Positions 41,689 to 50,685 of a stretch of 64,000 nucleotides of DNA are shown here, piece after piece. The stretch covers positions 1 to 64,000 of the forward strand of contig JAADEY010000018.1 of NCBI GenBank assembly GCA_013153145.1, read 5' to 3'. The notes beneath the pieces were generated by a model that saw only the letters and a program-made list of their open reading frames with translations, searched no databases and had not been told where the DNA came from. The position numbers were made by a program, and so were the translations under genes. Each line of letters starts with the position of its first letter. Within the stretch, counting starts at the first letter, position 1. The stretch comes from Thermoproteota archaeon. Lineage in GTDB: Archaea > Thermoproteota > Thermoprotei_A > Sulfolobales > Pyrodictiaceae.

Positions 41689-42801
41689 TTGAGGAGCGGC
41701 CCCTTGGAGGAGTGTAACGCAATCCTTGTAAAGACCGTCCTTGGCATGGAGAGGGTTGCGGCGAGCTACATAAAGGAGCTCGATCCCTCAGCGAGGGTGA
41801 CACCGGCCCCACTGGGCTTCAAGGGCCTCGTGGTTGTTGAGCCCTCACTGGACAAGAAGCTGCTGGCTAAGATGATAGAGGAGCGTGTACCCGAGGCCGA
41901 GAAGGTCATAGTGGCGGAGGCGTGCTCGGAGGCGGAGCCATCGAAGATAGCTGAGGCGGCCGCCAGGCTGGCCCGCGGCAGGATAGGCAGCGACGAGACG
42001 TTTGCAGTTAGGACGGTTAGGAGGGGGAGACATAGCTTCACGAGTATAGACGTTAACGTTGTCGCCGGTGACGCCGTCAGGAAGGCTACGGGTGCATCGG
42101 TTAACCTATCGATGCCGGACAAGGTAGTCCTAGTCGAGATCATAGGTGATAGGGCCTACATCTCGATAATCCCGGGCTCCAAGATATGGAGGAAGATGAA
42201 GCCCGGCAAGTACCCCCTCTATAAGCTCTTCAGGAGGCTGAGCGTTGTTCAGATGCCCTACCTCGGCCCCCTCGACGCCTGCTACCATCTAGGCCTACGG
42301 GTCGGCCGCGAGGTGCAGAACTATGAGGTGGGCGAGCTAGTCATAGCCCCTATAGGGCTTGTTGACGCCGAGCAGTTGAAGAGGTTCATCGAGGGCGTCC
42401 TCGAGGGTATAGAGTCTCGGTACCAGGTTCAGAGGAAGAGCTACGCCAGGAGGGTTCACCGTGTACCGGTTAGGCTTCAGGATCTATACCAGCTTGTGAG
42501 GAGTAGGGCTGGCCGCGAGCCAATAATAGTGTTTGAGCCGGAAGGCGAATACATAACGAAGGTGGCTGATGAGCTGTACAGGATAGTTACGAGAAGTAGG
42601 AGGGTAAACCTGCTCTTCGGCTCACGCGAAGGGATCCCGGAGGGAGTGTATAGGTTTGCAGACCTCGTCCTAGACATAGCACCCGGCATAACACTCTCAA
42701 CAGAGTACGCCGCCGCAGCCGGCCTAACAGCCCTAGCGACAGTCCTGCACGACAAGCTCGCCTCAGAGGCTGACTCCGAGCAGCCTACTGATAGTGGTTG
42801 A
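41689..42801 (+). CDS. THUMP-SPOUT RNA methyltransferase-like protein
   Basis: 370 residues. The N-terminal two-thirds include a THUMP-like region (FAVRTVRRGRHSFTSIDVN, GASVNLSMPDKVVLVEIIGD, about 105-156). The C-terminus looks like a SPOUT knot: LLFGSREGIPEGVYRFADL and LVLDIAPGITLSTEYAAAA (about 310-350). Such proteins methylate tRNA or rRNA with S-adenosylmethionine; the target is unknown. TTG at 41689 (RSGPLEE) or TTG at 41704. The end overlaps the convergent hypothetical gene by 39 bases. Confidence 0.7.
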   Translation: MRSGPLEECNAILVKTVLGMERVAASYIKELDPSARVTPAPLGFKGLVVVEPSLDKKLLAKMIEERVPEAEKVIVAEACSEAEPSKIAEAAARLARGRIGSDETFAVRTVRRGRHSFTSIDVNVVAGDAVRKATGASVNLSMPDKVVLVEIIGDRAYISIIPGSKIWRKMKPGKYPLYKLFRRLSVVQMPYLGPLDACYHLGLRVGREVQNYEVGELVIAPIGLVDAEQLKRFIEGVLEGIESRYQVQRKSYARRVHRVPVRLQDLYQLVRSRAGREPIIVFEPEGEYITKVADELYRIVTRSRRVNLLFGSREGIPEGVYRFADLVLDIAPGITLSTEYAAAAGLTALATVLHDKLASEADSEQPTDSG

Positions 42802-46325: not shown

Positions 46326-46401
46326 AGCCCCTCAGCATGGTCAGTGATCCTCATCGCTTCTCCGCGGGCTTATCGGTGTAGGGTAGCTTCCTCATCGGGC
46401 T
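46326..46401 (-). ncRNA. Candidate C/D box guide RNA next to taw3
   Basis: On the minus strand, box C ATGAGGA (46395-46389), a 12-base guide (46388-46377), box D'-like CCGA (46376-46373), box C' ATGAGGA (46354-46348), a second 12-base guide (46347-46336) and box D CTGA (46335-46332). The flanks AGCCC (46401-46397) and GGGCT (46330-46326) pair, making the terminal stem of a kink-turn. The stem begins inside the taw3 stop codon. D' to C' spacing (18 bases) is longer than usual. Nop5 and fibrillarin, which act with such RNAs, are encoded at 48.7-50.7 kb. Confidence 0.6.
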
Positions 46402-47029
46402 AGGAGACTAGCTCGAGTAGCTTAGTCTTGAGCTTCTCCAGCCTCTCCTTCCCCCTCTCAAGGTACTTGTTGAGCACGTTTGTAAGCGTTATGACGTCTA
46501 CGAGCGCTATCTGTCTCCCCCACAGCTTGACGGGTACATCTATCCTCTCCGAGCCCTTGATTATAACGTAGTAGGCGTTACGCGCCCTCCTGCTAGGCCT
46601 GTAGCAGGCGTACTTGAAGCCGGCATCTATAGCGGCGTCGACGACGCGGAGGGCGTTCTCCTCGCCGCAGACGTATAGTGTTAGGACTGGCGGCTGCGCG
46701 GAGACCCATACGCATGGAAGCCCTGTATACTCGGCCTCCCTGAGTGCATCAGCTAGCCATGCCTGGTCTATGGGTGAGTGGCTCCTGGCGACTATCCTCC
46801 CAGACTCCTTGTCCCACGGCTCCCTGGCCGCCAAGACAACTATCCTGCCGCTGCAGCTGCTCGAGGTGACTATCCACCACTCCTTGTTAATCCTGGCTAG
46901 GAACTCCGCGATGTCCGGGTCCACCAGGCCCTTCGACATATCCTGTGTAAGCCTGTCAAGCAGCCTACGTCTAAGGTTGAACCATTCCCCTCTACATGCC
47001 CTCCTAAACCCTAGTCCTCCACTCCACAC
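46400..47029 (-). CDS. taw3: tRNA-Phe wybutosine methyltransferase Taw3 (TYW3 family)
   Basis: Methylates the tricyclic guanosine derivative at position 37 of tRNA-Phe. Landmarks: WWIVTSSSCSGRIVVLA (about 51-67), the family core, HSPIDQAWLADAL, CVWVSAQPPVLTLYV and DAAIDAGFKYACYRPSRR. The GTG at 47029 gives 209 residues and overlaps the upstream ORF by 19 bases. Downstream the candidate guide RNA starts at the stop codon, so both may come from one transcript. Confidence 0.88.
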   Translation of the reverse strand: MWSGGLGFRRACRGEWFNLRRRLLDRLTQDMSKGLVDPDIAEFLARINKEWWIVTSSSCSGRIVVLAAREPWDKESGRIVARSHSPIDQAWLADALREAEYTGLPCVWVSAQPPVLTLYVCGEENALRVVDAAIDAGFKYACYRPSRRARNAYYVIIKGSERIDVPVKLWGRQIALVDVITLTNVLNKYLERGKERLEKLKTKLLELVS

Positions 47030-47733
47030 GTGTACAGCGCCCCTACAAGGGCTGCTACTCCGAGTGGTGACGGGGCCTCCGAGGGTTCAAAACCGTATAG
47101 AACTGCCTCGCCCATCCCCCGGAACAGCCATGCAACAGTCTTCCTGCCTATCCCGAGGAGGGGGGTGAGGCCGCGGGCTGCGGGGCCGACGGGCTCGGCG
47201 AGCCTCTCGACGCATACGTGGCCATCGGCCTTGCCGAAGACGCCTACAGGGTGGAGGGGGTTCATCGAGCGTAGCCTGCCGCATACACCGCCCCCCACGG
47301 AGACCTCCAGGCTCTTGGAGCCGGGGAGCAGCGCCACCCCCCGTGCACCCCGGGCAGCACTGTCCAGGAGCTCCCCGAGGCTACCGACAACCTCCACGTG
47401 GACGCCGAGCGCCTCAAGCATCGCAGCCCCCTCGCCCGAGCCATGGTAGAGGCACTTGCAGTCCCCTATCCTCCTACCATAGCACCATGCGGGCTCCTCG
47501 AGCAGCCAGCCGCCGACACCGCAGCCGCCGCTGCACACTATGCTCCCTATACCCACGGTTATCCTGACCCTAACGCCATCCCTCGAGGCCAGGACGGTGA
47601 ACGGGTAGTCGACTATATGGCAGCGGCAGCTCCTCGCAGTAACGAGTAGCCTCAACACGTCCCTAGGCCTACGCAGGATCTCCTCGACCGGCACGACCTC
47701 CGCCCCCTCGGCCAGCCTCGGCACAGCCCTCAC
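47011..47733 (-). CDS. Uncharacterised Cys-rich protein upstream of taw3
   Basis: 240 residues, not recognised. Cysteines occur in two groups, SCRCHIVDYP (about 35-44) and CSGGCGVGGWLLEEPAWCYG...CKCLYHG (about 67-98), which could hold a metal or Fe-S cluster. The C-terminal part has Gly-rich turns (VALLPGSKSLEVSVGGG, RGLTPLLGIGRKTVAWLF). It overlaps taw3 by 19 bases, hinting at a related job (tRNA modification), but that is only context. Confidence 0.6.
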   Translation of the reverse strand: MRAVPRLAEGAEVVPVEEILRRPRDVLRLLVTARSCRCHIVDYPFTVLASRDGVRVRITVGIGSIVCSGGCGVGGWLLEEPAWCYGRRIGDCKCLYHGSGEGAAMLEALGVHVEVVGSLGELLDSAARGARGVALLPGSKSLEVSVGGGVCGRLRSMNPLHPVGVFGKADGHVCVERLAEPVGPAARGLTPLLGIGRKTVAWLFRGMGEAVLYGFEPSEAPSPLGVAALVGALYTCGVED

Positions 47734-48636: not shown

Positions 48637-48675
48637 GTCTCTTCCCCCTCCTTGCGTCTGGAAGGTGCAGCCTGC

Positions 48676-49917
48676 ATGAAGGCGCACATAGTCCAGCACT
48701 TCACCGGCGCGTACGCCCTAGACGAGGAGGGCAAGGTAATAGAGTACGAGCACGGCCCCAAGTACCTCGACGACCTAGTGGAGGAAGCGTTGAAGGTAGA
48801 GAAGGGGGAGGTACCCTCAGCGTATATCAGGCTACTGGACAAGCTGAAGGAGAAGGGGGTGGAGGAGCTAGTAGTCGAGACCCCCGAGGAGGCGAGGGAG
48901 GCTCATGCACGCGGCCTAAAGGCCGAGGTCGCCCCCGCCAACGAGGTCGCCAGGAGCTTCCGCCTTAACGCCGTCAAGTATACGGTGGAGACTGGGTTCT
49001 TCAAGGACGAGGAGGAGTACTACAAGTTCCTCCACGAGTTCCTCATAGAGGCTACGAGGCGTAAGCTGAGGAGGATAGCGCAGAAGAGGGACCTCCTAGC
49101 CGCCCAGGCCATAAGAGCCATAGACGACATAGACAAGACAACCAACCTGTTCTCAGCGAGGCTGAGGGAGTGGTACAGCCTACACTTCCCCGAGCTAGAC
49201 GACCTGGTAAGGGAGCATGAGGACTACGTCAAGATAGTCGCCGAGCTGGGCCACCGCGACAACATAACCAAGGAGGCGCTCATAAAGCTCGGCTTCAGCG
49301 AGGAGAAGGCCGAGAAGATAGCAGAGGCGGCGAGGAAGAGCATGGGTGCAGACTACCCAGAGTTCGACATAAAGCCCATGCAGAGGCTCGCCCAGATAAC
49401 GCTGGAGCTATTCAAGCTGAGGAGGGAGCTCACCGACTACATAGGCCAGGTAATGAAGGAGGTGGCGCCAAACATAACCGCTCTAGTAGGCCCACTCCTA
49501 GGAGCACGCCTCATAAGCCTGGCAGGCAGCCTAGAGGAGCTAGCCTTCCTGCCAGCGAGCACGATACAGGTGCTGGGTGCAGAGAAGGCCCTGTTCAGGG
49601 CGCTGAGGACTGGAGGCAAGCCGCCGAAGCATGGAGTGATATTCCAGTTCCCCTACATCCACCGCTCGCCGCGCTGGCAGCGTGGAAAGATCGCCAGGGC
49701 GCTTGCAGCCAAGCTAGCTATAGCGGCTAAGGTCGACTACTTCACCGGCAGGTTCATAGGCGACAAGCTCAAGGAGGCGTTGATGAAGCGTATAGAGGAG
49801 ATAAAGAAGATCTACGCGAAGCCGCCCAAGCGCAAGAAGGAGATAAAGCCGGTGAAGCCTGCGAGGCCGAAGAGGAGGAGGCGCGGCAGGCGCGGCAAGG
49901 GCAGGAGGAGGAAGTAA
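48676..49917 (+). CDS. nop5: Nop5 (Nop56/58), C/D box RNP core protein
   Basis: Scaffold protein of box C/D methylation RNPs, about 413 residues. N-terminal domain binds fibrillarin; the central coiled coil spans about 100-230; the NOP domain includes VAPNITALVGPLLGARLISLAGSL and STIQVLGAEKALFRALR, then GKPPKHGVIFQFPYIHRSPRWQRGKIARALAAKLAIAAKVDYF. The tail is Lys/Arg-rich (KPARPKRRRRGRRGKGRRRK). ATG at 48676 (MKAHIVQH) follows GGAAGGTG. Paired with fibrillarin 45 bases downstream. Confidence 0.96.
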   Translation: MKAHIVQHFTGAYALDEEGKVIEYEHGPKYLDDLVEEALKVEKGEVPSAYIRLLDKLKEKGVEELVVETPEEAREAHARGLKAEVAPANEVARSFRLNAVKYTVETGFFKDEEEYYKFLHEFLIEATRRKLRRIAQKRDLLAAQAIRAIDDIDKTTNLFSARLREWYSLHFPELDDLVREHEDYVKIVAELGHRDNITKEALIKLGFSEEKAEKIAEAARKSMGADYPEFDIKPMQRLAQITLELFKLRRELTDYIGQVMKEVAPNITALVGPLLGARLISLAGSLEELAFLPASTIQVLGAEKALFRALRTGGKPPKHGVIFQFPYIHRSPRWQRGKIARALAAKLAIAAKVDYFTGRFIGDKLKEALMKRIEEIKKIYAKPPKRKKEIKPVKPARPKRRRRGRRGKGRRRK

Positions 49918-49962: not shown

Positions 49963-50685
49963 ATGAGCGAGGTCGTGAAGGTATATGAGCATGAACGCTA
50001 CAAGAACGTCTACGTCGTGGAGCTGGAGGACGGCAGCGTTAGGCTGGCGACCAAGAACCTCTCCCCGGGCTTCAGGGTGTATGGTGAGAGGCTGTTCCAC
50101 TGGAAGGGCGAGGAGTATAGGGAGTGGAACCCCTACCGCAGCAAGCTCGCCGCAGCCCTCCTCAAGGGCATAGACGAGCTCCCAATCAAGGAGGGTGATG
50201 CGGTACTATACCTCGGCGCGGCAACCGGCACCACGTCCAGCCACGTCTCAGACATAGTCGGGCCCAAGGGGAGGGTGTACGCGCTAGACGTTGCGCCCAG
50301 GGTAATGAGGGAGCTCATCGTAGTATGTGAGCATAGGCCCAACATGTACCCCCTGCTCAACGATGCGAGGAAGCCCTACCAGTACCGCCACATAGTCGAG
50401 GCGGTCGACGGCATATACGCCGACGTGGCGCAGCCGGAGCAGGCGGCGCTGGTAGCTGATAATGCTGACTACTTCCTAAAGGAGGGTGGCTGGCTCCTCC
50501 TAGCGATAAAGGCTAGGAGCATCGACGTCACCAAGGCGCCCAGCGAGGTCTTCAAGAGGGAGATAGAGGTGCTGAAGAACAGGGGCTTCGAGATAGTAGA
50601 CATGGTCCACCTGGAGCCCTTCGACAAGGATCATGCAATGGTGTATGCACGGTATAGGGGTAGGCAGTCCGGGGAGAAGCAGTAA
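49963..50685 (+). CDS. flpA: Fibrillarin, rRNA/tRNA 2'-O-methyltransferase
   Basis: 240-residue methyltransferase of C/D box RNPs. AdoMet site [20 protein letters not shown] (about 84-103), acidic loop [14 protein letters not shown], and [14 protein letters not shown], with the catalytic Lys in [16 protein letters not shown] at 49963 after GGGGTGGTG. No Gly-Arg tail, as in archaea generally. Operon with nop5. Confidence 0.97.

Follow-up and report, generated by a model that had tools for sequence, protein, structure and literature searches.

A C/D box sRNA gene was identified at positions 46326 to 46401 on the minus strand of the window (the whole 64 kb stretch of DNA analysed), where it overlaps the 3' end of taw3. 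It is considered probable that the gene product, a taw3-derived sRNA, guides the methylation of G10 of initiator tRNA-Met and of G46 of initiator tRNA-Met and/or tRNA-Asn. Architecture, conservation, stem covariation, guide-target complementarity and locus synteny were all established by computation. If the explanation is correct, a guide RNA is assigned to the initiator tRNA of hyperthermophilic archaea, with two exact methylation sites predicted.

Architecture of the sRNA and its genomic neighbourhood

The first-pass annotation had proposed a C/D guide RNA at 46326-46401 from its boxes, two 12-nt guides and flanking stem, and all of its coordinates proved correct. The sRNA gene and its neighbours comprise the following features:

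46326-46401, minus strand: C/D box sRNA gene (covariance model match at E 7.2e-16, as a training sequence; homologs across the order; pattern unique in the window)
46397-46401, minus strand: 5' side of the terminal stem, AGCCC; covaries and overlaps the taw3 stop by 2 nt
46389-46395, minus strand: box C, ATGAGGA (sequence and conservation), separated from the stem AGCCC by a single G
46377-46388, minus strand: D' guide, AGCTACCCTACA, 12 nt; 10 bp with initiator tRNA-Met nt 7-16, fifth base opposite G10
46373-46376, minus strand: box D', CCGA (CTGA in six aligned relatives)
46355-46372, minus strand: D'-C' spacer, 18 nt (4-22 nt in relatives)
46348-46354, minus strand: box C', ATGAGGA (sequence and conservation)
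46336-46347, minus strand: D guide, TCACTGACCATG, 12 nt; complementary to the variable loop/T-stem of tRNA-Asn and initiator tRNA-Met, fifth base opposite G46
46332-46335, minus strand: box D, CTGA (sequence and conservation), with a single G between it and GGGCT
46326-46330, minus strand: 3' side of the terminal stem, GGGCT (covariation across seven aligned sequences)
46400-47029, minus strand: taw3 (TYW3-domain methyltransferase), the sRNA host gene; PF02676 at E 1.8e-30, stop codon TAG at 46402-46400
47011-47733, minus strand: orphan gene upstream of taw3, matched at 3e-17 by an HMM of proteins encoded upstream of the sRNA in family f6
48652-49917, plus strand: Nop5 (aNop56), C/D RNP core protein; NF011121 above cut-off
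49963-50685, plus strand: fibrillarin, C/D RNP 2'-O-methyltransferase; PF01269 at E 3.6e-106

Sequence features by which C/D sRNAs are recognised were found, namely boxes close to RUGAUGA (C, C') and CUGA (D, D') in the order C-D'-C'-D, 12-nt guides directly upstream of D and D', a stem that would close the terminal k-turn and complementarity to tRNA, together with genes for C/D RNP proteins. The pattern RTGANGA-N10-13-CYGA-N3-25-RTGANGA-N10-13-CTGA occurred once in the 64 kb, both strands included, and in none of 60 dinucleotide shuffles. The terminal stem of the window comprises three direct pairs, or five with a bulge, and is weak in genus g4; as had been suggested, it begins inside the taw3 stop codon. 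The mature sRNA is probably about 60-75 nt in length. No Rfam family reached its gathering score over the site. At relaxed thresholds, the archaeal C/D families sR1, sR19, sR10 and sR7 aligned exactly to 46399-46330 on the minus strand (E 0.04-2.3).

The identities of Taw3, Nop5 and fibrillarin, named earlier as neighbours of the sRNA, were all borne out by domain matches. The window taw3 scores below the NCBIfam Taw3 cut-off, and a second TYW3-like gene is present in the genome at G000:C26:48558-49094, so that either copy may carry out the wyosine step; a TYW3-domain gene was found in 94 of the 98 genomes of the order. A THUMP-SPOUT RNA methyltransferase (AF2226-like) is encoded near the C/D protein genes, at 41689-42801 on the plus strand.

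Conservation and covariation

A covariance model was built from seven sequences, comprising that of the window and those of six relatives in its own family (genera g2 and g4), whose elements had been located by reading across the taw3 stop codon. The six relatives share GTGAAGA-(A/G)GCTACCCTANN-CTGA, followed by a variable spacer, box C' and a D guide with a GACC core. Columns for box C, the guide, box D' and the D core were conserved across the alignment, nine guide bases (GCTACCCTA) were invariant and the guide register was constant. The boxes, whose presence in close relatives had been named as a check, were thus conserved together with the guides and a covarying terminal stem, upholding the reading of a C/D box guide RNA.

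The sequences of the closing stem vary among homologs with pairing maintained, taking the forms GGGC/GCCC, GAGGC/GCCTC, CGGGC/GCCCG, CCC/GGG and AA/TT. Unconstrained RNAalifold recovered only a small C'-guide hairpin and not the terminal stem, which was then tested specifically. In alignment columns 3-6/76-79, all four pairs change on both sides, with a covariation score of 0.714 compared with a shuffled mean of 0.238. None of 500 shuffles scored as high, in a control that does not remove relatedness, and the score dropped when the partner was slid by one to three columns.

Of the 229 genomes of the class, 52 had a homolog detected by the model at E<=0.001, all but one within the same order. 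The sole exception, G217, was a partial match at E 9.6e-4 and may be due to chance. An exact pattern scan of named genomes returned Pyrodictiaceae, Acidilobaceae, an Aeropyrum sp. and Desulfurococcales archaea, together with two stray matches labelled bacterial, which is about the number expected by chance by our own estimate. The bases GCTACCCTA were identical in 43 of 47 homologs, whether coding or noncoding. A weaker homolog was also observed in G021 (family f10, L009), 63 nt downstream of TYW3, with the D guide ACCGACCTCA retained and a different D' guide.

Movement of the stop codon and of the host gene

The order at the locus in the window is orphan gene (47733-47011), taw3 (47029-46400) and sRNA. 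Among relatives, genera g2 and g4 and family f4 have the taw3 stop within box D' (offset 26-27), and G191 has it within box C (offset 8); the sRNA can extend 26-27 nt into the taw3 reading frame. The block encodes a TYW3 C-terminus of the form -(D/E)(D/E)ATLx in relatives, as would be expected if what is conserved were the tail of the taw3 protein, or an mRNA 3' element, rather than a free RNA. However, the codons GCT ACC CTA are invariant at synonymous sites, which indicates constraint on the RNA, and in the window the block falls outside any protein, while elsewhere it follows unrelated genes. Box D', box C', the D guide and the stem lie beyond the stop codon yet are conserved. Furthermore, in G018 (L157) the sRNA is located at the end of a NurA gene, and NurA ends in EEATLI, matching the TYW3 tail CEEATLx of other genera; NurA carries this TYW3-like tail because the RNA sits at its gene end, and a relocated sRNA can therefore bring a protein tail along. 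The protein-tail explanation was rejected on the combination of synonymous-site invariance and noncoding homologs, and the probability attached to it is minimal.

In family f6, taw3 is missing at the site and the sRNA follows genes for a family of proteins of approximately 180-250 aa without a Pfam match, whose stop codon is often inside box C. As the profile of these f6 proteins matched the window orphan gene (E 3e-17), it seems that a single locus has carried the sRNA throughout its descent, with taw3 lying between in some lineages. Searches of Pfam and NCBIfam gave no match for the orphan protein at 47011-47733. The family to which it belongs (47011-47733, minus strand; L163, L164, L169, L173, L210, L221) adjoins taw3 and/or the sRNA in two families of the order, and likewise had no Pfam or NCBIfam match.

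Predicted targets of the two guides

Candidate targets for both guides were the tRNAs of the same genome (33 or more), those of G039, and the 16S and 23S rRNAs of four family members; scoring required a Watson-Crick pair at the fifth base before D or D'. The rRNA of the source genome is absent from the assembly, and that of relatives was substituted. The first-pass annotation had proposed a search for rRNA or tRNA complements, and tRNA matches were obtained for both guides. Its suggested link to tRNA-Phe, drawn from the role of Taw3, did not hold: tRNA-Phe was a poor match for both guides and was rejected as a target, scoring 4.4 and 4.0 compared with 10 and 9.2 for the best tRNAs.

The D' guide forms ten contiguous Watson-Crick pairs with initiator tRNA-Met (AGCGGGGTAGGGTAGCC...), with the fifth base opposite G10 and a score of 10, and initiator tRNA-Met was its best tRNA in all seven f1 members tested. 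Complementarity of this kind predicts Gm10 of initiator tRNA-Met. Positions from about -3 to -12 of the guide are constant, and -1 and -2 vary. The guide positions that read the substrate are positions 3-12. By a published rule, the stretch of substrate read by a C/D guide is no longer than 10 nt (Yang et al. 2016, as cited in PMC6313347), and the constant block agrees with this rule.

For the D guide, the partner in initiator tRNA-Met is A44-G53, spanning the variable loop and T-stem, with the fifth base opposite G46; this was the best match in six of seven f1 members, and in G063 the ten contiguous pairs are Watson-Crick throughout. In the window, the D guide instead scored 9.2 with tRNA-Asn, in 11 contiguous pairs including three G-U, versus 7.8 with initiator tRNA-Met, where there is one A-A mismatch at -3. 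With A in place of T at -3, the guide fits U44 of tRNA-Asn better than A44 of initiator tRNA-Met. An A at this position was also seen in G082 and several f6 genomes. The D guide is accordingly predicted to specify Gm46 of initiator tRNA-Met, with a better fit in the window to tRNA-Asn. The spacing between the D-guide core and box D is not constant in family f6, so that the target on the D side may there be G45 or be undefined.

These scores leave room for an arrangement in which only the D' guide is functional, at G10 of initiator tRNA-Met, with the D guide either an orphan or switched to tRNA-Asn G46 in the lineage, so that no single tRNA is doubly guided. The higher tRNA-Asn score in the window is what this would lead one to expect, as is the precedent of Pyrobaculum, in which tRNA-directed sRNAs carry one tRNA guide and one targetless guide (PMC7994747). 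The GACC core of the D guide is nevertheless kept across families, and almost every f1 and f4 member has T at -3, a base that pairs with A44 of initiator tRNA-Met but not with U44 of tRNA-Asn. The arrangement is a genuine possibility whose chances are put well short of even. When the fit of both guides to one tRNA was considered jointly, shuffled guide pairs did as well at a frequency of 0.0007 for the window and 0 to 0.0003 for four relatives.

rRNA is the substrate of most archaeal C/D sRNAs, and the guides might act on it too. In genera g2 and g4, the D guide reaches 8.8-9.6 against a 23S site close to the 3' end, almost as high as against tRNA. However, the best rRNA scores for the window guides were 8.3 (in one species only) and 6.5, compared with 10 and 9.2 for tRNA, and D guides of the CCGACC form (g48, f6, G063) no longer match the 23S site but do fit initiator tRNA-Met. 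A match to rRNA was also seen in genus g29 (L175, L208, L225), in which the D' guide is changed to (A/G)GCTGACCTGC, its fit to tRNA is lost, and a 10-bp match to 16S rRNA (position 1157 in G039) is found; here, retargeting of one guide is likely. Action of the guides on rRNA was judged improbable.

For the family as a whole, a reading is tentatively put forward, at slightly under an even chance, in which a trans-encoded double-guide sRNA, held at one locus across several families of the order, would methylate both G10 and G46 of initiator tRNA-Met. One of the guides would, in some lineages, have been redirected, either by the single change at -3 to tRNA-Asn G46 or, for the other guide, to 16S rRNA. 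If true, the homologs offer a natural series: the target of one guide RNA is retained through changes of host gene, stop position and promoter arrangement, and single guide bases send a guide to another tRNA or to rRNA.

Proposed mechanism

The taw3 mRNA would end in the sRNA, which would be trimmed free through its assembly with L7Ae, Nop5 and fibrillarin. No TATA-like box was present at the expected distance (about -26) upstream of the sRNA in the window, which, together with the 26-27 nt that lie inside the taw3 frame in relatives, fits its release from the taw3 mRNA. Several f6 genomes show a TATA-like box, and the sRNA may therefore use its own promoter there. Once assembled, the D' guide would pair with nt 7-16 of initiator tRNA-Met and direct 2'-O-methylation of G10, and the D guide would direct the same modification of G46 by pairing, in initiator tRNA-Met and/or tRNA-Asn, with the variable loop and the first part of the T-stem. 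In the tRNA core, nt 10 and nt 45/46 contact each other's triples. As G10 and G46 meet in the folded core, the RNA probably stabilises initiator tRNA, or helps it to fold, at high temperature. From the sequence evidence we infer the expression of the sRNA, its processing from mRNA, the methylation and its effect.

Relationship to known C/D RNAs

Overlap of C/D sRNAs with 3' gene ends and the use of tRNA as a C/D target are already known; what looks new is the sRNA family and the aiming of both guides at a single tRNA, the initiator. About 25% of archaeal C/D sRNA genes overlap a 3' gene end, stop codon included (Tripp et al. 2017, as relayed in PMC7994747). The RNA described here is of the same class with the same overlap as those so relayed, but constitutes a new family by guide sequence, and its stop codon shifts between stem, box C and box D' at one conserved locus. 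The tRNA-Trp intron C/D RNA sR50 is a double guide for Cm34 and Um39 (PMC7994747), and both RNAs thus aim two guides at one tRNA; sR50, however, is an intron of its own target and acts on the anticodon region, whereas the present RNA is encoded apart and the tRNA core is targeted. The tRNA-directed sRNAs of Pyrobaculum, including a Cm56 guide (Lui et al. 2018, as relayed in PMC7994747), are also free-standing and tRNA-aimed but, by that account, usually combine one tRNA guide with an orphan guide and address other positions. The Rfam families sR1, sR19 and sR10 were the best structural models, aligning over the same 70 nt, and with scores of 15-16 against a gathering score of 45 the sRNA is not a member of them.

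G10 and G46 of initiator tRNA-Met were absent from the earlier predicted S. acidocaldarius and P. furiosus tRNA sites given in PMC7668247, and Gm10 and Gm46 of this tRNA were not found in the tRNA surveys PMC7668247 and PMC12247713. Modifications recorded for initiator tRNA are Gm29 in S. acidocaldarius and m7G10 in P. furiosus (PMC7668247).

Initiator tRNA-Met is nearly identical across the genomes carrying the sRNA, and the target sequence is invariant. Several f6 genomes (L197-L201) have an initiator tRNA-Met gene that breaks off after nt 38 and resumes 37 nt, 538 nt or 1.2 kb away; in G122 the two halves are on different contigs, and in G115 a gap follows about nt 31. These interrupted f6 genes represent large introns or split tRNA genes.
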